From positions 1-47,720 of the forward strand of contig CALUXF010000011.1 in the NCBI GenBank assembly GCA_944324655.1: a stretch of 47,720 nucleotides of DNA, read 5' to 3'. The DNA is from Candidatus Avelusimicrobium aviculae (lineage in GTDB: Bacteria > Elusimicrobiota > Elusimicrobia > Elusimicrobiales > Elusimicrobiaceae). The translations under genes and the position numbers were made by a program. Shown one piece after another: positions 9,956-45,427 of this stretch; within the stretch, counting starts at the first letter, position 1, and every line of letters starts with the position of its first letter. A model generated the notes under the pieces. It saw only the letters and a list, made by a program, of their open reading frames with translations, was not told the DNA's origin and made no database searches.

Positions 9956-10001
9956 ATAGGTAGAAATGCCTTTTGGCATACACCGCGTAAAAGGGGGTTG
10001 T

Positions 10002-10985
10002 ATGGATATAAACACTTTAAACAAACAAGTACAAGCGGAAAGCCTTTTCCTGCAGGATTTAAAACGGGAAGTAAGCAAAGTCATCGTAGGACAGGAAGAC
10101 CTGCTGGAAAAAATGCTGGTGGCCTTGCTGGCCGACGGTCATATCTTGATAGAAGGCGTGCCCGGCTTGGCAAAAACATTGGCCGTAAAAACCCTGTCCC
10201 AAGCCATACACGCCCAATTTCAGCGCATTCAGTTCACGCCGGATTTGTTACCCGCCGACATTACCGGTACTCTCATTTTCAACCCGAAAGAAGGCGTATT
10301 CTACCCCAAACGCGGGCCGGTATTTTCCAACTTTGTACTGGCGGACGAAATTAACCGTTCCCCCGCCAAAGTGCAAAGCGCCCTGTTGGAAGCCATGCAG
10401 GAACGCCAAGTAACCATTGGGGAAAAGACCTACGCCCTCCCTTCCCCCTTTATGGTGTTAGCCACCCAAAACCCGGTGGAACAGGAAGGCACTTACCCCC
10501 TGCCGGAAGCGCAGGTGGACCGCTTTATGCTTAAAGTGCTGGTTACTTACCCCACCCGGGAAGAGGAAAAACAAATTTTGGAAAGGATGTCCACCCACCA
10601 ACAGCCGCAAATAAACACCCAGGTCACCCCGGAAATGATTTTAAAAGCCCGCCAGGTGACGGACGGCATTTACGTGGATGAAAAAATTAAAAATTATATC
10701 GTCAGCCTGGTTTTCGCCACGCGCGACCCGAAGGCCGCCGGCCTGGAAAAGCTGGCCTCTTTTATTGCTTACGGAGCCAGCCCGCGTGCCACCATCTTCT
10801 TAACGCAAGCCGCCAAGGCATACGCTTTCTTAAACGGACGCGGCTATGTAACGCCGGAAGACATCAAAGCCATCGGCCTGGACGTACTGCGCCACCGCGT
10901 ATTGTTAACCTACGAAGCCGAGGCCGAGAACGTAACCTCTGACCAAATCGTCAAACAAATCTTTGACGCCGTGGACGTACCATAA
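10002..10985 (+). CDS. moxR: MoxR-family AAA+ ATPase of the Bat cluster
   Basis: A 327-residue AAA+ ATPase. Walker A GVPGLAKT (52-59), Walker B 'LADEINR' and the sensor block 'LATQNPVEQEGTYPLPEAQVDRF' (split: LATQNPVEQEG / TYPLPEAQVDRF) are typical of MoxR/RavA proteins, which act as chaperone-like ATPases with VWA-domain partners. The start at 10002 is taken because a GGGGG run precedes it by 6 nt; a longer frame from 9966 has none. The 3' end is followed 22 bp later by the DUF58 gene and then the VWA proteins BatA and BatB, its likely clients. Confidence 0.92.
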   Translation: MDINTLNKQVQAESLFLQDLKREVSKVIVGQEDLLEKMLVALLADGHILIEGVPGLAKTLAVKTLSQAIHAQFQRIQFTPDLLPADITGTLIFNPKEGVFYPKRGPVFSNFVLADEINRSPAKVQSALLEAMQERQVTIGEKTYALPSPFMVLATQNPVEQEGTYPLPEAQVDRFMLKVLVTYPTREEEKQILERMSTHQQPQINTQVTPEMILKARQVTDGIYVDEKIKNYIVSLVFATRDPKAAGLEKLASFIAYGASPRATIFLTQAAKAYAFLNGRGYVTPEDIKAIGLDVLRHRVLLTYEAEAENVTSDQIVKQIFDAVDVP

Positions 10986-11007
10986 CCGCGCGCCGGGGGT
11001 AAGCCTT

Positions 11008-11895
11008 ATGGATACCGCGGAAATTTTAAAAAAAGTACGCCAAATTGAAATACAAACCGGGAAATTGGTCTCAGAAACTTTCTCCGGCGAATATTTAAGC
11101 GTATTTAAGGGCCAAGGGATAGAATTTGCCGAAGTGCGCGAATATATCCCCGGGGATGATATACGCTCCATAGACTGGAACGTAACCGCCCGAACCGGCG
11201 TGCCTTTTGTAAAAAAATACAATGAAACGCGTGAGCTGACGCTTATCATCGCCTGTGACGTTTCCGCCTCCCAGCGTTTTGGCTCTTGGGATAAATTAAA
11301 ACAAGAAACCGCCGCGGAATTGGCCGCTTTGTTTGCGTTCAGCGCCATGACCAATAATGACAAGGTGGGCCTGTTGCTGTTTTCTGACAAAATAGAATTG
11401 TTTGTTCCCCCCAAAAAAGGCAAAAAACACATTTTGCGCTTAATCAGGGAATTACTGGCGTTTGAGCCTTCCTCTAAAGGGACGGATATCGCCCTGGCCT
11501 TAAAAACGCTTACCAAAGTAATACGCCGTCAAGGCATATTGGTTTTGCTGTCAGATTTTATGGCCCCCATTGAACAGTTTGAAAAACCGTTCCGCCTGGC
11601 CGCCAAAAAGTTTGACTTAATTCCCGTAGTGATTTCAGACCGAAGAGAAAAAACCCTCCCCGCCCTGTCCGCCTGTTTAGCCGTGCAGGACCCGGAAACC
11701 GGGGCCGAGGGCATGCTGACCCTCTCCCACGCGGCCGCTGCGCATTTACAACAAGACGCGCAACAAAGAGATTACGCCTTAAAACAACTTTTTAACCCGC
11801 TTAAGATAGAGGCCATATCCGTAGATACGGCCCAGCCGGCGGCGGACCCGGTTATCGCGTTTTTCAAACGCCGCGCCAAAAAATTAAAGAGGTAA
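11008..11895 (+). CDS. DUF58 / VWA-like protein of the Bat cluster
   Basis: A 295-residue cytosolic protein. The DUF58 signature 'EFAEVREYIPGDDIRSIDWN' lies near residues 33-55, followed by a VWA-like MIDAS 'ACDVSASQ' and 'LLLFSDKIE'. DUF58 proteins accompany MoxR ATPases in nearly all Bat-type loci. Start at 11008 is chosen for the GGGGGTAAG sequence before it; the extension to 10963 would overlap moxR. Metal binding is plausible from the DxSxS motif but not proven. Confidence 0.9.
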   Translation: MDTAEILKKVRQIEIQTGKLVSETFSGEYLSVFKGQGIEFAEVREYIPGDDIRSIDWNVTARTGVPFVKKYNETRELTLIIACDVSASQRFGSWDKLKQETAAELAALFAFSAMTNNDKVGLLLFSDKIELFVPPKKGKKHILRLIRELLAFEPSSKGTDIALALKTLTKVIRRQGILVLLSDFMAPIEQFEKPFRLAAKKFDLIPVVISDRREKTLPALSACLAVQDPETGAEGMLTLSHAAAAHLQQDAQQRDYALKQLFNPLKIEAISVDTAQPAADPVIAFFKRRAKKLKR

Positions 11896-11896
11896 T

Positions 11897-12904
11897 ATGA
11901 AACGTTTTTTAATCTTTTTTATTTGTGCATGCTCCTTGCCGCTTTACGCCCAGCAGGCGCCCGCTCCCCGCGGGCAGGCTCCCGCTCAACCCCAGGCGCG
12001 GCAAACCGCCACCGGCAATAAGCCGCCTATTGCTTTTACGCAGGAGCAAGTGCCTTCTTCGGCCGTATTTGCTAAGCCCATTACTCTTTCTTATTCTTTT
12101 TCGCACGCGCCCGGCTATAAAGTAGAACTGGATGAAGAAAACCTGCCTAAAGATTTTGAGTTTTCCTCTATACAAGGCATGCCCGACTCCCCCGGCACGT
12201 TTACCTATACCATTACGGCTTACCCCTTTGAGTTAAAGGAAGCCAAATTAACCCCGCTTACATTTTTACTTAAAAACGCAGACGGAGAAACAGTCAACTC
12301 CATTTCCACAGAAGAAACCAAAATAAACGTTTCCAAAGCAGAAACGTTCAAAGACAATAACTTCCGGGAAATACGGGACCCGCATTTCCCCTTTGCCTGG
12401 TTCAAGTGGTTGCTTATCTTATTAGTAGCAGCCGGTGCCGTCTATGCGGCCTGGTATTATTGGCAACGCAAACAAGCCGCCGCCCGCGCCTTGGGAGCCC
12501 CCCAAGACAACCGCCCTTGCGAAGAGGTGGCTCTTTCCAAATTGGAAGCCCTTATACAAAGCGGCCTCTGGGAACGCCACGAATACAAAATATTTTATCT
12601 AACGCTTACGGATATTCTGCGTGAATACCTGCTGCGCCGTTTTAATATAGACACCACGGCAGACACTTCAGCCGAAATGCTGCGCCGCATTAAAAACAGC
12701 GGGCAGGAACTGATGGCGCCGCTGTTACCCAAATTGCGCGTATTTTTAAGCTCCAGCGATTTGGTAAAATTCGCACGCGCCGTCCCGCCGGAAGAATACC
12801 GCAACCGGGATATAGACATTCTGCGTTTGCTTATTGATTCCACTACCCCCAAAAGCCAGGAATTAGTAAAAACCCCCTCTACCCGGCAGGAGGCCGCCAA
12901 ATGA
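11897..12904 (+). CDS. Membrane-anchored Bat-cluster companion protein
   Basis: A 335-residue protein with a signal peptide (cleavage near LYAQ), a Pro/Ala/Gln-rich linker, a beta-rich periplasmic part (about 45-165), one TM helix (about 170-190, 'WLLILLVAAGAVYAAWYYW') and a cytosolic helical tail containing 'YLTLTDILREYLLRRFNIDT'. That tail resembles the C-terminal part of this window's BatD ('VEEFLLKRFHINM'), suggesting the two share a cytoplasmic module. Similar genes between DUF58 and batA are known in Bacteroidetes-type Bat loci. Stop overlaps the batA start. Confidence 0.75.
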   Translation: MKRFLIFFICACSLPLYAQQAPAPRGQAPAQPQARQTATGNKPPIAFTQEQVPSSAVFAKPITLSYSFSHAPGYKVELDEENLPKDFEFSSIQGMPDSPGTFTYTITAYPFELKEAKLTPLTFLLKNADGETVNSISTEETKINVSKAETFKDNNFREIRDPHFPFAWFKWLLILLVAAGAVYAAWYYWQRKQAAARALGAPQDNRPCEEVALSKLEALIQSGLWERHEYKIFYLTLTDILREYLLRRFNIDTTADTSAEMLRRIKNSGQELMAPLLPKLRVFLSSSDLVKFARAVPPEEYRNRDIDILRLLIDSTTPKSQELVKTPSTRQEAAK

Positions 12905-14028
12905 TGACACTTTTTTTAATATCCTGCGTTTTATTAATACTGGTGCTGTTATCTTCTTTATTCATTAACCTGCCGGAAAAGGTTTTTGCCGCTTTGATAT
13001 GGACATTTGGCACCCTCACCACGCTGTTGCTGGCGGCGTTAATCATCCAGCGCCTGCTGGGGACAAAAGCCGCTTTTGCAAATCCCTGGGCACTGCTGTT
13101 GCTTATTTTGCCGGCAGGCGTGCTGGCCGCCAAAAGTATTTGGAAAAAATCTTTCACCCCGCATGTGCTTTATTCCCGCACTCAGCAAACCATACAACAA
13201 GCTTCTCTGCGCGCCCTGCTTACCCAGTGGCTTCCCGTTACCTTATATACGGGGGCGCTCGTCTTGTTTGTGCTGGCCTTGGCGCGCCCGGTGCTGTTGC
13301 GCCACACCACCATTCCCCCAACACAAGGGGTGGATATTATGCTGGTGATGGACGTTTCCGCCTCTATGCAGCGGCAGGACTTTTACCCCAACCGTTTTGC
13401 CGCCGCCCAGCGCACGGCGGATAGCTTTATCCAAAAGCGCGTTAATGACCGCCTGGGCTTGGTGGTATTCTCCCGTTATGCCATGCTGCAAGCCCCCCTT
13501 ACGCTGGACCATGACGCCGTGCGGGAGCTGTTAAACGCGCTTTATTTGGGTATTATTGACCCCACCTATACAGCCATTGGGGACGCGGTGGGGGTAGCCA
13601 TATCCCATTTAAAAGACAGCCAGGCAAAAAGCAAAATTATCATTTTACTGACGGACGGAGACTCCAACGCCGGAACGATAGACCCCCGCCTGGCCGCCCA
13701 GGCGGCCGCTTCCTACGGCATAAAGCTCTATACTATTGCCACCGCCAGCCCGCCGGGCAGCGGCGTATATTCCAGCCAGGAAGAAGAAATTAACGAAGGC
13801 CTACTGATGGAAATGGCCAAAACGGCCAACGGGCAGTTTTACCGCGCCAAAAATGAAATGGAACTGGCCAATATTTACGATAAAATAAATGAATTGGAAA
13901 AAACCACTTTTACCTATAACATCCGCACCAACCAGAGTGATTTTTATCTGCCGTTTGTTTTAGCCGGCCTTATCTTGTTGGCTGCGGGGCTGGTGTTGGA
14001 AAAATTATTTTTAATAAGGGTACCCTGA
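12901..14028 (+). CDS. batA: BatA: VWA-domain membrane protein
   Basis: A 375-residue protein. The VWA domain begins at 'GVDIMLVMDVSASMQ' (MIDAS Asp D151, with Ser residues at i+2 and i+4) and ends before a C-terminal TM ('FVLAGLILLAAGLVLEKLF'). The usual BatA N-terminus corresponds to 'FANPWALLLLILPAGVLAA' near residue 59; here ~58 extra residues with two more hydrophobic helices precede it. The start overlaps the previous stop (ATGATGA); either of the two tandem ATGs could be used. The VWA domain is expected to face the periplasm and interact with the other Bat proteins. Confidence 0.9.
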   Translation: MMTLFLISCVLLILVLLSSLFINLPEKVFAALIWTFGTLTTLLLAALIIQRLLGTKAAFANPWALLLLILPAGVLAAKSIWKKSFTPHVLYSRTQQTIQQASLRALLTQWLPVTLYTGALVLFVLALARPVLLRHTTIPPTQGVDIMLVMDVSASMQRQDFYPNRFAAAQRTADSFIQKRVNDRLGLVVFSRYAMLQAPLTLDHDAVRELLNALYLGIIDPTYTAIGDAVGVAISHLKDSQAKSKIIILLTDGDSNAGTIDPRLAAQAAASYGIKLYTIATASPPGSGVYSSQEEEINEGLLMEMAKTANGQFYRAKNEMELANIYDKINELEKTTFTYNIRTNQSDFYLPFVLAGLILLAAGLVLEKLFLIRVP

Positions 14029-14029
14029 T

Positions 14030-15064
14030 ATGGAATTATTTGGAAAACCTATATTTTTTATATACTTTTTACTTGCCGCTTTAGCGGCGGGCGCCATATG
14101 GCTGGCCGGAAATAAATTAAAAAACCGCGCCATCAACGCTTTTTTTGGCCCCCAGGCTTATGCCAAGCTGACGGGCGGGCTGCGCCTAAACCATAAATTA
14201 AACGCCATTTTCTTTTTTACCGGTTTGTTTTTTCTTTTCACCGCTTTGGCGCGGCCTCAGTGGGGGACGGAAGTAATCCAGGCGGAAGGGAAATTCGCGC
14301 AAACCGTGATAGCGGTGGATGTGTCCTCCTCCATGAAAGCGCGGGACTTACAGCCAGACCGATTAGCTAACGCTAAAAACATGCTGTCCATGCTCATTTC
14401 CAACTTGAAAGATGAACGCATAGGCATTATCGCTTTTACCACCAAGGCTTATATCCAGTGCCCTATTACCACCGATGAGGCAGCTCTTAAATATTTTCTT
14501 TCCAATTTAAAGCCGGATATGCTGCCGGTGCCCGGAACCGCTTTAGCCGCGCCGGTAGACTTGGCAGCCCACATGCTGTCTAAATACCCGGGGCAAAAAG
14601 CCCTTATCCTGCTTACGGACGGGGAAGACCATGAACCGGACCAGCTTAAAAAAGCCATTAAAATCGCAATAGAAAACGGCCTCCGCGTTATTGCGGTAGG
14701 GATTGGTACCCAAGAAGGGGAGCTGATACCGCAGCGGGTGGACGGATCGGGCAAAGTATTAGAATATAAAAAAGACAAAAACGGAAATACCGTTGTCAGC
14801 AAATTAGATGAAAAATCCCTTTTGGAGTTGGCTCAGGCAACCAACGGAGCCTATATCCACTATACTACACCCGCCCAGGTGGCTTCCAAAGTGGAAGCGA
14901 ACCTGAAGGATTTGGACCGAAGCTATTCTTCGTCAGGCGCCCATGCGCGTTATAAAGACCGCTATCAAATCCCGCTGGGTATAGCTATTTTGCTGTTTTG
15001 TTTATGGTTGCTTTGGCCGGCCGGCAAAGCCGCCGCAGATGCCGGGTCAAAAAAGGTACAATAA
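14030..15064 (+). CDS. batB: BatB: VWA-domain membrane protein
   Basis: A 344-residue BatA-like protein with two N-terminal TM helices (about 8-27 and 58-75), VWA MIDAS 'VIAVDVSSSMKARDL' (D97), 'LILLTDGEDHEP' and a C-terminal TM near 312-330. It starts one base after the batA stop and is followed directly by batC, the usual BatA-BatB-BatC order. Length and topology agree with family members. Confidence 0.92.
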   Translation: MELFGKPIFFIYFLLAALAAGAIWLAGNKLKNRAINAFFGPQAYAKLTGGLRLNHKLNAIFFFTGLFFLFTALARPQWGTEVIQAEGKFAQTVIAVDVSSSMKARDLQPDRLANAKNMLSMLISNLKDERIGIIAFTTKAYIQCPITTDEAALKYFLSNLKPDMLPVPGTALAAPVDLAAHMLSKYPGQKALILLTDGEDHEPDQLKKAIKIAIENGLRVIAVGIGTQEGELIPQRVDGSGKVLEYKKDKNGNTVVSKLDEKSLLELAQATNGAYIHYTTPAQVASKVEANLKDLDRSYSSSGAHARYKDRYQIPLGIAILLFCLWLLWPAGKAAADAGSKKVQ

Positions 15065-15070
15065 AAGAAG

Positions 15071-15742
15071 ATGAAAAAAGCGCTATCTGTTTTCTTTATT
15101 TTTTGTTTATGCCCCGCCGCCATGGCCGGGGTAAAGGGGGATTTGTCTAAAGGAAGCCGCCTTTACAAAGAACAAAAATTCGGGCAGGCATTGACTTCTT
15201 ATCAAAAAGCGCTGTCCCAGGACCCCTATAACCAAGAAGCGCTTTTTAATATCGGCGCGGCCCACTACCGTTTACAAGAATACAAAGAAGCCCAAGAAGC
15301 GTGGGAAAACGCCTCCCAAAAACCGGGGGAACGCAAACAAGACGCCCAATTTAATTTAGGCAACGCGTTTTACCGCGCGCAAGATTTGGACGCCGCCATC
15401 GCGGCGTACCGCAAAGCCATTTTACAAAACCCGCAGGATAAAGAAGCCATACATAATTTACAAATTGTGCTGGAACAGAAAGAAAAAAACCAGCAAGACT
15501 CCTCTAACAATAACCAAAACGATAAAGGGGACAACAACCAAAACCAAAACAATCAGGGCGGGCAGGACAATCAACAAGATCAACAACAGCAACAACAAAA
15601 ACAGCAAAATCAGGCAAATTCTTCCCAAATGAGTAAAGAAGAAGCCCAGCGGGTGGCCCAAATGGCCAAAGAAAATGAATACCGCCCCTCTTACGCCACC
15701 CCGGGCGGGTTGGAAGATTCCGGCATAGAAAAGGATTGGTAA
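15071..15742 (+). CDS. batC: BatC: exported TPR protein with Gln/Asn-rich region
   Basis: A 223-residue protein with a signal peptide (cleavage near AMA-GV), about three TPR repeats (residues 25-140: 'KGSRLYKEQKFGQALTSYQK', 'EALFNIGAAHYRLQEYKEA', 'AQFNLGNAFYRAQDLDAAIA'), then a Gln/Asn-rich low-complexity stretch (about 140-185) and a C-terminus ending in KDW, as is common in BatC proteins. TPRs probably hold together the periplasmic Bat complex. RBS is AAGAAG before the ATG. Confidence 0.9.
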   Translation: MKKALSVFFIFCLCPAAMAGVKGDLSKGSRLYKEQKFGQALTSYQKALSQDPYNQEALFNIGAAHYRLQEYKEAQEAWENASQKPGERKQDAQFNLGNAFYRAQDLDAAIAAYRKAILQNPQDKEAIHNLQIVLEQKEKNQQDSSNNNQNDKGDNNQNQNNQGGQDNQQDQQQQQQKQQNQANSSQMSKEEAQRVAQMAKENEYRPSYATPGGLEDSGIEKDW

Positions 15743-15746
15743 TTGT

Positions 15747-17570
15747 ATGCGTATACGTAACTTTTTACTTACACTGGCTTTTGCGGCGGCGGCGCTGGCT
15801 GCCCATGCCCAAGTAACCATGACGGCCAGCGTAGACAAAACAAACCTGTCCCTAGATGACGAACTGACGCTGACCGTACAAATTACCGGTGCATCGGGCA
15901 ATGTCGTCATGCCCCAGCTGCCCAGCCTGCCGGCTTTTAACGTATATTCCAGAGAAGTGTCTTCCATGAACATCAACGGGCAGACTTCCACCGTTTTCCG
16001 CTATGTTATGCTGCCGCGTTTTCCCACGCAAGCTACTATTGGAGCCATACGCTTTACCTATAACGGCCAAGTATACACCACCCAACCCATACAAGTAAAC
16101 ATTTACCGGCGCGTGCCTGCCGGCCGCAGCAAAGGAGGGGCCGTCCAGCAAGCGTCTTCTTCCGGCACGGGCGGCAATTATGACTCCGCCGTCTCTTCCC
16201 GCACGCAAAACACCATTCCGCAAGCGCTCGCTTCCACGGACACCCTGGCGGAACAAAATGGGGATAAGAGTTTCTTTATGACGGCCGCCGTCAACAATAC
16301 GTCCCCTTACGTAAACCAACAGGTGGAACTCATTGTGCGCTTTTATTATTCCCGTCCTTTTGCGGGGCAGCCGCCTTACACTCCCCCCACGGTAAACAAT
16401 ATTTTCATGGAACCCCTTAAACAAAACACGGAAGGGAGCCAAATCCTACAAGGAAAAATGTTTCGCTATATAGAAAACCGCTACGCGCTGTCCGGCGTAC
16501 AGGCGGGCAAGGCGGTTATCGGGCCGGCTATGGTGCAATTCCAACCCGGCAGCAATGACGTCTTTTCCGCCTTTGACCGTCTTTTTGGCGGTTTGGCGGC
16601 GGAGCCCCAACAACTCGTAAAAAGCAACCCCATTACCTTAAACATACAAGCCACCCCCACCGCCGGGCGCCCCGCCAGCTTTTATGGCGCGGTGGGAACG
16701 GATTTCACCCTCCAAGCCCAGGCGGACAGAACCCAGGTGGAAGCCGGGGAAAGCATTAATTTAACCGTTACGGTCAAAGGACCGGGGAATTTAAAACCCA
16801 CCTCTGATTTAAAAATACCGCAAATAAACGGGTTTCGGGTGTATGACGTAGCGTCAGACTCCGTTACCCTGCCTTTAGGCCGAGGGACGCAAAGCACCAA
16901 AACGTTTAAAACGGTGCTGGTGCCTACGGCATCCGGTTCGTACACCATACCGGCGTTGGCTTGGTCCTATTTTAACCCGAAAACCAAACGCTATGTGACG
17001 TTGACCACCAAACCCATATCCGTGGAGGTTACCCCCTCTACCAAGGCGGATAACGCCGTCAGCTTTACGGGAGGCAATACTTCCGGCGGGTTTAGACAGC
17101 TGGGTAAAGACATCCGCTATATAAAAACAGACCCATATCCGGGAGAAGTGGGCTGGTTGGTGTCCGTAGGGGCATTAACCTGGCTGGCGTGGATATTCAT
17201 TTTCTTACCTGTTATATGCCGGCTTGCGATATGGCTGGGGAAAGATTCCCTTAAGAGCAAAGGCCCCATTTTAACCGCACGCAACCAATTAAAAAAAGCG
17301 TGTGTGGAAGAACAAGTAGCCGCCGCGGTGGAAGAATTCCTATTAAAACGTTTTCACATTAACATGGGCAGCAGCAAACTGCGCGAAACAATGGAAATAT
17401 TAAAACAAAAAGGTGTCCACCCGGACACATTAAAAGCGTTTGCCGCTTTATGGCAACGGCTGGACGCCGCCCGCTTCGCTCCGGAAAACTTAGCCGCGGC
17501 GGACACCCGCGCATTAGCCGCCCAAGCGCTTAACCTGCTAAAACATTTAGATTCGGAGGGCCGCTTATGA
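15747..17570 (+). CDS. batD: BatD: large periplasmic protein with C-terminal TM
   Basis: A 607-residue protein matching the BatD ('oxygen tolerance') family. It has a signal peptide (residues 1-21, AHA-QV), then repeated beta-sandwich segments; one begins 'VTMTASVDKTNLSLDDELTL' and another 'FTLQAQADRTQVEAGESINL', showing an internal repeat of the same domain. A TM segment lies near residues 470-500, followed by a ~100-residue cytosolic helical tail. Its stop overlaps batE by 4 bp. BatD is the signature large periplasmic subunit of Bat clusters. Confidence 0.92.
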   Translation: MRIRNFLLTLAFAAAALAAHAQVTMTASVDKTNLSLDDELTLTVQITGASGNVVMPQLPSLPAFNVYSREVSSMNINGQTSTVFRYVMLPRFPTQATIGAIRFTYNGQVYTTQPIQVNIYRRVPAGRSKGGAVQQASSSGTGGNYDSAVSSRTQNTIPQALASTDTLAEQNGDKSFFMTAAVNNTSPYVNQQVELIVRFYYSRPFAGQPPYTPPTVNNIFMEPLKQNTEGSQILQGKMFRYIENRYALSGVQAGKAVIGPAMVQFQPGSNDVFSAFDRLFGGLAAEPQQLVKSNPITLNIQATPTAGRPASFYGAVGTDFTLQAQADRTQVEAGESINLTVTVKGPGNLKPTSDLKIPQINGFRVYDVASDSVTLPLGRGTQSTKTFKTVLVPTASGSYTIPALAWSYFNPKTKRYVTLTTKPISVEVTPSTKADNAVSFTGGNTSGGFRQLGKDIRYIKTDPYPGEVGWLVSVGALTWLAWIFIFLPVICRLAIWLGKDSLKSKGPILTARNQLKKACVEEQVAAAVEEFLLKRFHINMGSSKLRETMEILKQKGVHPDTLKAFAALWQRLDAARFAPENLAAADTRALAAQALNLLKHLDSEGRL

Positions 17571-18289
17571 AAAAACTTTTTGCTGTTCTAGGTTTGTTGG
17601 CGGCGCTTGCCGCAGGATCTTTTGCCCAAGAAGCGGCCTCCCAGGCGGAACAATATTACAGCCAGGGCAAGTTTTCCGCCGCGCTGGATTTGTATGAAGA
17701 TGAATTAAAAAACGCCCCAAACAACCCCTATGTTTACTACAATATAGGTAACTGCTATTTTAAAATGGGCAGTATGGGTTTGGCCGTAGCCAATTATTAC
17801 AGGGCGTTCCGCTTAGCCCCGCGGGACGGGGACATCCGCCACAATTTAAACTTGGCGATGGAAAGCGCCGGGGAACATTTAGTTCCGGGTGGAATGCCGG
17901 AAGTATTGCACAAATTGTTCTTTTTATTATCCTATAACGAATTAAAAGGCCTGGCAATGCTGTGCTTGGGGGCCTTTTCCTTACTGCTGTGCATATGGAT
18001 AATAAACCGCCGTTTTGGAAAAACGGTTTGGGCCCTGCTGGCGGCGCTTATCATCTGCGGCGGGTGGCTGTATCTGCGGCGGGGGCAGGAAATGCAGGTT
18101 TTGGCGGTAGTAGCCAGCCCCACGGCAGAGCTGCGCAGCGGCCCGGGGACCAATTTCCCGGCCAGCGCCAATTTAACCCACGGCCATTTGGTTATACTAA
18201 AAGACAGCCGCAATCATTGGGAAGAAGTAATCGTAAAATCCCAAGGCTTGCAAGGCTGGATCAAAAGCGAAAGCTTGGAGAAAATTTAA
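17567..18289 (+). CDS. batE: BatE: TPR and SH3b membrane protein
   Basis: A 240-residue protein with a signal peptide (AAGSFAQ), TPR repeats (about 24-95, 'AEQYYSQGKFSAALDLYEDE'), two TM helices (about 127-142 and 148-165) and a C-terminal bacterial SH3 domain ('AELRSGPGTNFPASANLTHG' onward, about 182-240). The TPR-TM-SH3 order is the common BatE layout. Translationally coupled to batD (ATGA overlap). The SH3b domain may touch peptidoglycan. Confidence 0.88.
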   Translation: MKKLFAVLGLLAALAAGSFAQEAASQAEQYYSQGKFSAALDLYEDELKNAPNNPYVYYNIGNCYFKMGSMGLAVANYYRAFRLAPRDGDIRHNLNLAMESAGEHLVPGGMPEVLHKLFFLLSYNELKGLAMLCLGAFSLLLCIWIINRRFGKTVWALLAALIICGGWLYLRRGQEMQVLAVVASPTAELRSGPGTNFPASANLTHGHLVILKDSRNHWEEVIVKSQGLQGWIKSESLEKI

Positions 18290-38965: not shown

Positions 38966-39550
38966 ATGAAAGTAAAGATAAACATAGACGGCGGAAGCCG
39001 CGGAAACCCCGGTCCGGGGGCTTCGGCCTACGTTATCAAAAATCCGGAAGGAAAATTACTGGCCCAGGAAGGGCATTTTTTGGCGCATTGCACCAATAAT
39101 CATGCCGAATTTACCGCCCTTAAACGCGCGGCGCAAGCCTGCCTGCTGCTGGGCGCCACGGAATTGGATATCCGCTCGGACTCTTTACTTTTAGTGAAGC
39201 AATACTTAGGAGAATATAAAATCAAGAACCAAAATTTAAAAGAGCTGATTGACCAAATCCGCCAAATTACCGAAAATTTCAAAGCGGTGCATATTCAACA
39301 TGTCCCGCGCGAACAAAATAAAGAAGCGGACGCTTTGGCCAACAAAGCCATGGACGCTAAGTGCGATGTGGGCTGCCCGCCCGCGCCAACAAATACACCA
39401 AAAACCAAAATCAATTCCGCCCCGGCTGCGCCAGCCCGGCAGTCCGCCGCAATCAAAACGGCACAGCCTAAAACCGGAAAAACGGGGCAGAAAAAAGCGT
39501 CCAAACCCAAAAAAGGGCCTCAACAATTAGATTTGTTTGACGGTTTTTAA
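38966..39550 (+). CDS. Ribonuclease HI with low-complexity tail and clamp-binding-like C-terminus
   Basis: Degrades the RNA strand of RNA-DNA hybrids. The RNase H fold occupies residues 1-132 with all four catalytic acids (D8, E48, D72, D122) and 'NIDGGSRGNPGPGA' at the start, the compact bacterial/archaeal type. Residues ~133-185 are a Pro/Ala/Lys/Thr-rich linker, and the protein ends 'PQQLDLFDGF'; QLDLF fits the QL[S/D]LF consensus for binding the DNA polymerase beta clamp. No SD; TAAAAT (38954-38959) lies 6 nt before ATG. rnpB follows. Confidence 0.88.
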   Translation: MKVKINIDGGSRGNPGPGASAYVIKNPEGKLLAQEGHFLAHCTNNHAEFTALKRAAQACLLLGATELDIRSDSLLLVKQYLGEYKIKNQNLKELIDQIRQITENFKAVHIQHVPREQNKEADALANKAMDAKCDVGCPPAPTNTPKTKINSAPAAPARQSAAIKTAQPKTGKTGQKKASKPKKGPQQLDLFDGF

Positions 39551-39621
39551 CGGCCCCTTGCGCGCTTTTCACCTTAAGAAACAGCGCTTGCTTTTTTATA
39601 AAAAAAGCCGAAACTATTTAC

Positions 39622-39957
39622 AACAGCCCAGATAGCCGCTCCCGGCCGTTTTAGGCTTAGGGGGAGGAACTTCCGGACTCCACAAGGCAGTGCGCCGCCC
39701 GAAAGGACGGGACGACGGGGCCATATCACCCCGTTGGACGGAAAGTGCAACAGAAAACAAACCGCCCGCAAGGGTAAGGGTGAAAAGGTGGGGTAAGAGC
39801 CCACCGCGTTTGCGGCAACGCAAACGGCACGGTAAACCCCGCACGGAGCAAGGCCAAGCCGGTCCACACGCTGCCCGCGTTCGTGACCAAGTAGGCCGCT
39901 TAGAGTAATGGCTATCCCGGCCCGCAAGGGCTGACAGAATCCGGGGTATAGGCTGTT
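39622..39957 (+). ncRNA. rnpB: RNase P RNA (type A)
   Basis: The catalytic RNA of ribonuclease P, which matures tRNA 5' ends. Seen: the conserved 5' core 'GAGGAACTTCCGGACTCC', the central 'AAGGGTGAAAAGGTG' followed by 'GGTAAGAGCCCACCG', and the 3' core 'GACAGAATCCGGGGTATAGGC'. The ends pair as helix P1 (AACAGCC 39622-39628 with GGCTGTT 39951-39957), giving ~336 nt. A terminator follows at once. Protein-like open frames on either strand here are spurious. Confidence 0.95.
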
Positions 39958-39959
39958 AA

Positions 39960-39994
39960 AAAACCGCCGTGTGCAAACACGGCGGTTTTATTTT
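39960..39994 (+). terminator. Rho-independent terminator of rnpB
   Basis: Perfect 13-bp stem AAAACCGCCGTGT / ACACGGCGGTTTT, GCAA loop, then TTTT. Confidence 0.93.
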
Positions 39995-42454: not shown

Positions 42455-43921
42455 ATGTCTAGAATTCTGTCCAAAATCAAACTGAATACCTTTGCCATTA
42501 TTTTGGCAATTGTCGGCGTGGTAGCCGTTATGACGTGGATAGTTCCCAGCGGGGCCTATGACAAAATGGAAGTGGACGGGCGCCAAATAGTGGTGGCCGG
42601 GACATACCATTCCGTCCCCGCAAACCCCCAAGGTTTATTTGACGTATTAAAAGCCCCCGTGCAAGGTTTTTCCAACACGGCGGAAGTCATCGTGTTTTTG
42701 CTGTTTATAGGCGGGGTGCTTTCGGTAGTAGAAAAAACAGGCGCCATTGCGGCGGGTATTCAGGCGGCCAGCGCGTTTTTCCAGCGCCGGCCGAATTTGC
42801 GCTTTCTTTTCATCCCGCTTGGGATTATCACTTTCTCTTTATGCGGCGCCACCTTTGGCATGTGCGAAGAAGCCTTAATTTTTATTCCTATTTTTATCCC
42901 GCTGGCGCTTTCTTTAGGGTATGACTCCGCCTTGGGGACCGCCATTCCGTTTATCGGCGCGGGAGTAGGTTTTGCCGCTGCTTTCACCAACCCGTTTACC
43001 GTAGGCATCGCGCAGGGCATCGCCCAAGTGCCGCTGTATTCCGGTTTGGGATACCGCTTAATTATTTGGGCCATCTGCACCTGCGTGGTAATTACCTGGC
43101 TTTCTTTCTACGCGCGCAAAATACGCAAAAACCCGCAGGCCAGCCTAACTTATGAGTTTGACATAGAAAAACGCAAAGAGCTGAAACTAAACAAAGAAGA
43201 AACCCACATTACCCGCCGCCAAAAATGGGTGTTGTTGGCTTTTGGGCTGGGCATGGTGGGGTTAATTATCGGCGTATTAAAACCGCAGATATGCTCTTTT
43301 ATTAAAGGCATGTGGGGCATTGATTTAATGCAAATGCTCCATTTGGAAGCTTCCGGCTGGTATATTACCGAAATTGCCGCCCTGTTCCTGGGAGTGGGTT
43401 TCTTATGCGGTATTTTGGGCCGCATGAAAATGAGCCAGTTTAATGATGCGTTCTTTGACGGGGTACGCGGCATGGCGGAAATTGCCGTACTGCTTTGCTT
43501 CGCGCAAGCCATCGTAATTATTGCCAATAACGGACACATCTTAGACACCATGCTAAACTGGATGTCTTCCGGCATTAAACATTTGCACCCGGTGTGCGCC
43601 TCCTGGGCCGCCATGATGCTGCAAACGGTGATAGACTTTTTTATCCCCTCCGGATCCGGCAAAGCCGTGCTGACCATGCCCATTTTGGCGCCGCTGGCGG
43701 ACTTAATCGGCATTACCCGCCAAACGATGGTACTAGCTTTCCAACTGGGCGGAAGCTGGCTGAACATGGTAATACCTACGGACCCGGTAACCATTGCCGC
43801 CATCGGTTTTGCGCGCATCGCGTACGGCAAATGGCTAAAATGGATGTTGCCGCTTTTGCTGTTAATGTACGTGTTGTCTTTTATATTCTTAGTGCCGCCG
43901 TATTTAATGAAGTGGCAATAA
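42455..43921 (+). CDS. YfcC-family carrier (C4-dicarboxylate anaerobic carrier-like), copy 1
   Basis: A 488-residue, ~11-13-TM transporter of the YfcC/DcuC-like group. Landmarks: 'TWIVPSGAYDKMEVDGRQIV', 'FGMCEEALIFIPIFIPLALS', 'TNPFTVGIAQGIAQVPLYSG', and a Ser/Gly-rich late motif 'FFIPSGSGKAVLTMPILAPL'. Substrates in this family include amino acids and small carboxylates; none can be assigned here. Only weak purine-rich sequence precedes the ATG. Followed by a terminator and then by its paralogue. Confidence 0.87.
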   Translation: MSRILSKIKLNTFAIILAIVGVVAVMTWIVPSGAYDKMEVDGRQIVVAGTYHSVPANPQGLFDVLKAPVQGFSNTAEVIVFLLFIGGVLSVVEKTGAIAAGIQAASAFFQRRPNLRFLFIPLGIITFSLCGATFGMCEEALIFIPIFIPLALSLGYDSALGTAIPFIGAGVGFAAAFTNPFTVGIAQGIAQVPLYSGLGYRLIIWAICTCVVITWLSFYARKIRKNPQASLTYEFDIEKRKELKLNKEETHITRRQKWVLLAFGLGMVGLIIGVLKPQICSFIKGMWGIDLMQMLHLEASGWYITEIAALFLGVGFLCGILGRMKMSQFNDAFFDGVRGMAEIAVLLCFAQAIVIIANNGHILDTMLNWMSSGIKHLHPVCASWAAMMLQTVIDFFIPSGSGKAVLTMPILAPLADLIGITRQTMVLAFQLGGSWLNMVIPTDPVTIAAIGFARIAYGKWLKWMLPLLLLMYVLSFIFLVPPYLMKWQ

Positions 43922-43926
43922 TTTTG

Positions 43927-43982
43927 ATATCCCGCCGCAATTTTTTGGGGAAACCCTTGTTTGAGCCGGCGGGATATTTTTT
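43927..43982 (+). terminator. Terminator between the two YfcC genes
   Basis: ATATCCCGCCG (43927-43937) and CGGCGGGATAT (43967-43977) form an 11-bp perfect stem around a 29-nt loop, followed by T-rich DNA. The large loop is unusual and itself holds GGG/CCC pairing. Confidence 0.75.
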
Positions 43983-44035
43983 ATAGAAAAAGAAGTACCT
44001 TAACCCGTACTAAAAAGAGGAAAACAAAGAAAAAA

Positions 44036-45427
44036 ATGAAAAAACTGCTGTGCAACACATACTTCCTGGTATTTGCCATTATGCTGCTTGTGGCGGCATT
44101 AACCTGGATTGTACCCACCGGCCAATACACCCGCGTGGAAGTAGACGGTAAAACATACGTGGAGGCCGGTTCCTACCATAAAGTGGCCCCCGCCCCGCAA
44201 GGTATAAGCGTATTAAAAGCCCCGGTGGAAGGGTTTACCCAATGCGCGGAAATCATTGCCTTTATTTTGGTGGTAGGCGCCTTGTTTACCGTGATAGACC
44301 GTACCGGCGCCATCAATACGGTCATTAAAAAAATCAGTTATTTCTTTTCCACCCACCCCCAATACAGGAAATTTTTTATTCCTTCCTGTATGTTTATGTT
44401 CTCGCTGTGCGGGGCTTTGTTTGGGATGGAAGAGGAAACGCTTATCTTTATCCCCATCTTTATCCCCCTAGCTATTTCTTTGGGATATGATACCGTGGTG
44501 GGGATGTCCATCCCGTTTATCGGGGCGTTTACGGGTTTTTCCTCCGCGTTTGTAAACCCGTTTACGGTGGGTATCGCCCAAACCATTGCCGAACTGCCTA
44601 TGTATTCCGGCTGGGAGCTGCGCTTAGGGGTATGGTTTTTATTCACTTCCGTTGTGGCGGCGTTCTTTACCATTTACGGGGAACGGGTACGCAAAAACCC
44701 TACCAAAAGCTTAACCTACAAAATGGATTTGGAAAAACGCGCCGAATTACAAGTAATTAATGACGTGGTGGTGGACAACTCCTTCCGCCTAACCCGCGCG
44801 CACAAATTGGTGTTGGCCTCTTTTGCGCTGGGTATGGGGGTGTTGTTCTTCGGCATCATTAAATACCAGTGGTATATGACGGAAATTGCCGCCGTTTTCC
44901 TGGGCGTTACCATTGCCTCGGCTTATTTTGGCAAATTAAACATTAACCAAGCGACCGATGCCATTATCGCTGGCGCGCAGTCCATGGTAAGCGTATGTAT
45001 TTTAATGGCGTTGGCGCGCTCTATTGTAATTGTAGCCACGAACGGATACATCTTGGATACGTTCCTGCACGCCATGACCAAAGGCATAGGTTCTTTGCCT
45101 TCTGTACTGGCGCCGCAGGCGATGTTCCTGATACAAACCGCGCTGAATTTCTTTATTGCTTCCGGCTCCGGCCAAGCGGTGCTGACTATGCCTATTATGA
45201 TCCCACTGGGGGATTTGGTGGGCGTATCGCGCCAAGTGGTTATTTTGGCTTACCAGTTTGGGGAAGGCTGGGGAAACCCCATTATCCCCACCGCTCCGGT
45301 TACCATGGGCGCCTTGGCCCTGGCCGGAATTTCTTACCCCCAATGGGTCAAGTGGTTCTGTAAGTTGGAAATCATACTGATTGTGCTTTCCATGCTGGTG
45401 CTTATTCCGGCATATTATATTTGGTAA
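44036..45427 (+). CDS. YfcC-family carrier, copy 2
   Basis: A 463-residue paralogue of the preceding carrier, co-linear throughout: 'LTWIVPTGQYTRVEVDGKTY', 'FGMEEETLIFIPIFIPLAIS', 'VNPFTVGIAQTIAELPMYSG', 'FFIASGSGQAVLTMPIMIPL'. It lacks ~20 residues present in copy 1 between the central helices. The start at 44036 puts 'MKKLLCNTYFLVFAIM' at the N-terminus; the longer frame to 43961 would begin inside the terminator hairpin. Substrate unknown; divergence between copies suggests different specificity. Confidence 0.85.
   Translation: MKKLLCNTYFLVFAIMLLVAALTWIVPTGQYTRVEVDGKTYVEAGSYHKVAPAPQGISVLKAPVEGFTQCAEIIAFILVVGALFTVIDRTGAINTVIKKISYFFSTHPQYRKFFIPSCMFMFSLCGALFGMEEETLIFIPIFIPLAISLGYDTVVGMSIPFIGAFTGFSSAFVNPFTVGIAQTIAELPMYSGWELRLGVWFLFTSVVAAFFTIYGERVRKNPTKSLTYKMDLEKRAELQVINDVVVDNSFRLTRAHKLVLASFALGMGVLFFGIIKYQWYMTEIAAVFLGVTIASAYFGKLNINQATDAIIAGAQSMVSVCILMALARSIVIVATNGYILDTFLHAMTKGIGSLPSVLAPQAMFLIQTALNFFIASGSGQAVLTMPIMIPLGDLVGVSRQVVILAYQFGEGWGNPIIPTAPVTMGALALAGISYPQWVKWFCKLEIILIVLSMLVLIPAYYIW

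Follow-up and report, generated by a model that had tools for sequence, protein, structure and literature searches.

RNase HII in archaea and RNase H2 in eukaryotes carry PIP boxes that bind PCNA, and these enzymes are the nearest parallel to the system described here. What is known of how bacteria target an RNase H to the appropriate RNA-DNA hybrids comes mainly from E. coli, where SSB does this. In a 2024 review (PMC11253446, citing Petzold 2015 and Wolak 2020), the RNase HI of E. coli is said to bind SSB and thereby to co-localise with the replisome. The bacterial motif for binding the beta sliding clamp is QL[S/D]LF, or more loosely QxxLF, and its positions 1, 4 and 5 matter most (PMC12309361). 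A motif of this type is found at the C-terminus of PolC and, in the form Q-L-x-L-F, of transposases (PMC12309361, PMC4549789), and E. coli DinG has QLDLF as its predicted clamp motif (PMC12525004). In the open-access literature (subscription papers lie mostly outside it) we found no report of an RNase HI that binds the beta clamp, and the passages on RNase HI in a 2026 review (PMC13220808) give no clamp motif for this enzyme. This agrees with the first-pass annotation of the DNA studied here, whose author was not aware of clamp tethering as a described feature of bacterial RNase HI: the open literature describes SSB and not the clamp.

We analysed a stretch of 47,720 nucleotides (the window) from a genome of Elusimicrobiota (1.62 Mb in 53 contigs, about 95% complete). 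It contains a gene for an RNase HI with a tail, near the end of which lies the pentapeptide QLDLF (Table 1). As with the SSB-tethered enzyme of E. coli, a protein hub would bring RNase HI to the replisome; there, however, RNase HI binds the C-terminus of SSB, whereas here a clamp-type peptide is present on RNase HI itself. The putative arrangement is also like that of the PIP-box enzymes, in that a short terminal peptide would place an RNase H on a sliding clamp, but those are type-2 enzymes acting with PCNA, whereas the present protein is a type-1 enzyme with a motif for the bacterial beta clamp. The C-terminal position of the motif is shared with PolC and the transposases, and the pentapeptide of DinG, predicted only, is identical to that of the window; none of these proteins is an RNase H. 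What appears not to have been described, as far as our search reached, is the combination of this known enzyme with this known docking peptide, fixed across an entire order.

Table 1. Position of the RNase HI gene, its parts and the adjoining RNA gene in the window.
Feature	Position	Strand	Basis
rnhA-like gene, RNase HI, 194 aa	38966..39550 (including stop)	+	ORF, ATG start
RNase HI catalytic core, residues 1 to ~132	38966..39361	+	Pfam, invariant residues, pLDDT
Pro/Ala/Lys-rich disordered linker (predicted), ~54 residues	39362..39523	+	Coil, low pLDDT
C-terminal putative clamp-binding motif, Q187-L-D-L-F191	39524..39538	+	Sequence; orthologue conservation
rnpB, RNase P RNA class A	39619..39964	+	Rfam RF00010, 195.5 bits

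A type-1 RNase H with an intact active site

The protein reads MKVKINIDGGSRGNPG...NKEADALANKAMDAK, continues into a Pro/Ala/Lys-rich stretch and closes with GPQQLDLFDGF before the stop codon; the C-terminal end of the open reading frame is ...KKGPQQLDLFDGF, followed by the stop. Residues 3-129 matched the Pfam entries RVT_3 (1.7e-24) and RNase_H (6.7e-11; in this case above the cut-off of the entry), and no other gene in the whole genome matched RNase_H. The DEDD quartet (D8, E48, D72 and D122) was invariant in two alignments, which comprised 14 and 32 relatives, and residues 1-130 were modelled by AlphaFold2 with a pLDDT of 94-99. The catalytic core is thus complete, as the first-pass annotation had stated.

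Comparison of the model with solved structures gave TM-scores (target) of 0.94-0.96 for 3hst and 4e19. The best solved matches were the RNase H of Rv2228c, the RNase H1 of Halobacterium and LC11 RNase H1, with E. coli RNase HI behind; in sequence as well as in fold, the protein is nearer to the first three than to the E. coli enzyme. It shares its catalytic domain with RNase HI of the Rv2228c type, with 38% identity and 1.1 A over 137 columns relative to 3hst. In place of a C-terminal motif, actinobacterial enzymes of this type mostly have a second domain, which we take to be an acid phosphatase. These results place the enzyme of the window among the type-1 RNases H of the Rv2228c/archaeal sort, with an intact active site. 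Because the active site is intact, we infer that the core cleaves RNA in RNA-DNA hybrids.

A conserved peptide at the end of a variable linker

From about residue 134 onwards, the AlphaFold2 model consisted entirely of coil with a pLDDT of about 56-70. A flexible, Pro/Ala/Lys-rich linker of about 50 residues had been proposed beforehand, and the stretch of predicted coil measures about 54. On this tail, which is predicted to be disordered, QLDLF sits three residues before the C-terminus (D-G-F and the stop codon follow) and, as also proposed, fits the QL[S/D]LF consensus with Q1, L4 and F5 all present. When this tail was shuffled, its last 10 residues contained Q-x-x-[LMI]-F with a probability of 0.0018. 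Such a C-terminus occurred in none of the 408 long non-RNase-H frames in the DNA examined (a redundant stop-to-stop set).

We searched for orthologues in 341 genomes of the phylum, with the proteins read from the DNA; the resulting counts rest on metagenome assemblies, and genomes of the same genus without a match may reflect assembly gaps. Across the order Elusimicrobiales, Q-x-x-L-F was found within the last 10 residues of 95 of the 99 complete orthologues (58/59 from the genus, 19/19 from elsewhere in the family and 18/21 from the sister family f2). With 2000 shuffles of each tail, 0.36 of 99 had it on average and never more than 3, compared to the 95 observed, although the orthologues are related and do not represent 99 independent trials. 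The motif was kept in 27 of the 28 representatives with less than 75% core identity. Tails were between 18 and 119 residues long after the core. Relative to the nearest species, the core was 96-98% identical and the linker 42-59% identical, with the motif retained; linker identity to more distant relatives was 17-28%, and the motif was still kept at 17% in a sister-family member. The first-pass annotation had named the conservation of the terminal residues against the variable linker as the point on which its proposal would turn, and these residues are indeed conserved where the linker is not. A chance match was rejected on the basis of the shuffling and of the order-wide conservation.

The motif was spelled by 75 different 15-mers in the 95 genes: Gln was encoded by CAA in 47 and by CAG in 48, and all six codons were used for Leu. 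Selection therefore appears to act on the peptide. Among the 95 orthologues, variation was confined to positions 2 and 3 of the motif (P 61, L 25; D, S, E, K, N). Positions 1, 4 and 5 were fixed, and position 4 was Leu in every case (95/95), even though the search would also have accepted Met or Ile. Pro occupied position 2 in 61/95, a form of the motif for which we found no affinity value in the literature; the protein of the window has the canonical Leu there. Since linkers are scrambled, synonymous codons are varied and positions 2 and 3 change while Q, L and F stay, we conclude that the motif is under constraint beyond inheritance, and shared recent ancestry alone was rejected as an explanation.

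The variety of codons also bears on the possibility that the gene end is conserved for the sake of an element in the DNA or RNA, such as the promoter of rnpB; rnpB itself directly follows the RNase HI gene on the same strand both here and in relatives. An element of this kind is difficult to reconcile with 75 spellings in 95 genes. No promoter-like site was found at the gene end, and in L121, from elsewhere in the phylum, rnpB is likewise preceded by an RNase HI gene, one that has no tail. This explanation was rejected, and we give it next to no chance of being correct. Alternatively, the C-terminus could be a proteolysis signal, i.e., a hydrophobic C-degron recognised by a protease such as ClpXP. 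Hydrophobic C-terminal residues on flexible tails can act as degrons, and many of the tails end with LF, DGF or GDL. A degron should nevertheless fix the very last residues, whereas those that follow the F of the motif range from none to DLNNL and it is the Gln three positions before the Leu that is fixed; we attach hardly any credence to this alternative.

Losses of the motif and occurrences outside the order

Within the order, the exceptions were one protein of the same genus with PPSLF where QPSLF was expected and three proteins of genus g5, in the sister family f2, from which the motif has been lost. In one g5 genome (G074, locus L063), a palindromic repeat has inserted where the RNase HI gene ends and has taken the place of the tail. 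The repeat is a REP-like palindrome, GGGGTCAGGTCTTGAATCTTGACA...TGTCAAGATTCAAGACCTGACCCC, located at about 720-780 of L063 (G074:C38), and its insertion rewrites the C-terminus. Because of the three sister-family losses and the one change from Q to P, we judge the tail to be dispensable in some lineages. RNase HI is not the sole enzyme for dealing with primers and R-loops, since a PolA-type 5' nuclease and RNase HII are also encoded, which fits the tolerated losses in g5. The PolA-type 5' nuclease domain was present in 17/17 genomes checked and RNase HII in 13/13, and we therefore rejected the idea that the tail makes up for the absence of either enzyme. The RNase HII of the window's genome ends with ...KLCQPVLLP and has no QxxLF, and none of the RNase HII C-termini that were read in the order carries such a motif.

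The loss of the tail in three f2 genomes is also in keeping with a motif that binds the clamp weakly or in passing, in which case localisation would be independent of it and its role would be competition with clamp users or some other one on DNA. Clamp peptides of the QxxLF type can be very weak: QMGLF of B. subtilis DnaE fits QxxLF yet binds at ~78 uM (PMC12309361), so that binding strength is not readable from sequence. Near-complete retention throughout the order beside a fast-evolving linker, in contrast, indicates a useful function, and we consider weak or passing binding of this kind to be unlikely.

In the phylum outside the order, the motif was found in 3/39 (3/26 in the class and 0/13 in the remaining phylum), and most RNase HI proteins there stop 2-10 residues past the core. 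The three members of the class with the motif are L103 (QAELF), L107 (QGLLF) and L139 (QGELF). They are short-tailed and belong to other families of the class, L103 and L107 being of one genus. L130 ends with QLMLKF, a possible hexapeptide form that was left out of the count. This distribution suggests repeated origins of the motif, or an older motif that has often been lost.

The GTDB collection was scanned with a single pattern, DG[GA]SRGNPG, and the best 80 loci were retained; this samples the present subtype and not RNase HI of the E. coli type. Among these 80 loci, the six carriers of the motif were all Elusimicrobiota (L212-L216, L223), two further Elusimicrobiota (L246, L254) were without the C-terminal motif, and it was present in 0/72 from other phyla. 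The 72 include Saccharibacteria, Planctomycetota, Actinomycetota, Acidobacteriota, Patescibacteria, Chloroflexota and a haloarchaeon. Where RNase HI lacks a tail, as in Saccharibacteria, Planctomycetota and other phyla, it shares the catalytic domain of the enzyme of the window and has no C-terminal motif.

The clamp and other candidate clamp clients

When aligned to solved clamps, the DnaN of this genome was found to retain RYxLNG, VATDGxRL, FPxYxxV and YVxMPxR, with a G in place of the H of ATDGHRL. We take the segments RYxLNG, ATDGxRL, FPxYxxV and YVxMPxR to be those that form the peptide cleft, and by this alignment the cleft of the host clamp is conserved.

Other candidate clients of the clamp were compared with RNase HI. 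The DnaE of this genome has AASLFGDD at the internal clamp site, where the sister family and G121 have QGSLF, QDLLF, QHMLF and QAMLF; in its SLFGDD it resembles the RNase HI of sister species, whose tails have QPDLFGDL/GDF. The MutS of this genome has MVKDLF at the place of the clamp motif in E. coli MutS. The motif region of the clamp-loader delta subunit reads NTAPVF, with no Gln, and is an uninformative comparator. A Y-family polymerase, considered for the same purpose, had no match in the window's genome and in eight others, of 13. Judged by its letters, the motif of RNase HI is the most canonical among the proteins compared in this genome. In the window's genus, DnaE (AASLF), MutS (VKDLF) and delta (TAPVF) are without the canonical Gln, and the QLDLF of RNase HI is perfect. 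The relative strengths of the clamp partners may have been re-tuned in this genus and, because these three motifs are without Gln, the clamp preferences of the organism may differ from those of E. coli.

It is conceivable that the tail merely resembles a clamp motif and docks on another replication or repair partner; SSB, the clamp loader or a helicase would be examples. E. coli RNase HI reaches the replisome via SSB, according to the review passage cited above (PMC11253446). An SSB hub exists in the organism of the window as well, its own SSB having the canonical tip EDDVPF. However, the fixed positions of the tail are exactly those of the clamp consensus, and the f2 tails stop at LF without the acidic-Pro-Phe pattern, which goes against mimicry of the SSB tip. 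SSB, moreover, recognises its partners via a pocket in the partner and not via a QxxLF peptide. We consider docking on another partner very unlikely.

Neighbouring genes

The start of rnpB lies 69 bases past the stop codon of the RNase HI gene, on the same strand; we regard it as context outside the proposed mechanism. It adjoins the RNase HI gene in 11 of the 17 other loci of the phylum that were scanned (L006, L016, L059, L070, L073, L081, L087, L095, L103, L107 and L121), including a tail-less one. The two genes are a conserved gene pair. Elsewhere in the window, at 42455-43921 and 43961-45427 (+), two membrane transporters that look related by eye stand side by side; each has 488 aa, and the pair seems to have come from a tandem duplication. 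A run of genes at 9966-18289 (+) was judged, also by eye, to resemble a MoxR / DUF58 / BatA-BatB-BatC-BatD cluster, with an AAA ATPase, von Willebrand and TPR proteins.

Tethering to the clamp as the proposed function

The best explanation of these observations is very probably that RNase HI is tethered to the beta clamp via QLDLF. Conservation points to selection for the peptide and is not proof of its partner; the clamp is suggested as the partner by the match to the consensus and by the intact clamp cleft. QLDLF would insert into the hydrophobic cleft of DnaN, one of the clamp's two, and the nuclease would ride on clamps, with the disordered linker of ~54 residues giving it reach and the core binding and cutting RNA in RNA-DNA hybrids. 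Clamps stay behind on finished lagging-strand fragments, and it is for this reason that we propose delivery of the clamp-riding enzyme next to RNA primers; it would also be brought near forks meeting R-loops. Binding to the clamp, delivery to the fork and the main hybrid in the cell are what we infer from the protein and its relatives. We lean towards some fork-linked role for RNase HI, and the evidence favours neither primers nor R-loops.

More tentatively, and with a confidence just short of even, the RNase HI of Elusimicrobiales may be a clamp-riding part of lagging-strand maturation that acquired its own clamp handle at the level of the order (with separate occurrences elsewhere in the class), i.e., a bacterial counterpart of the PIP-box RNase H2. 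If tethering to the clamp is true, it would constitute a second solution for targeting a bacterial RNase H and a parallel to the tethering of RNase H2 to PCNA in archaea and eukaryotes. RNase HI would then join the clients of the clamp, and a tail with a short motif would have been enough to rewire the enzyme to the replication fork.
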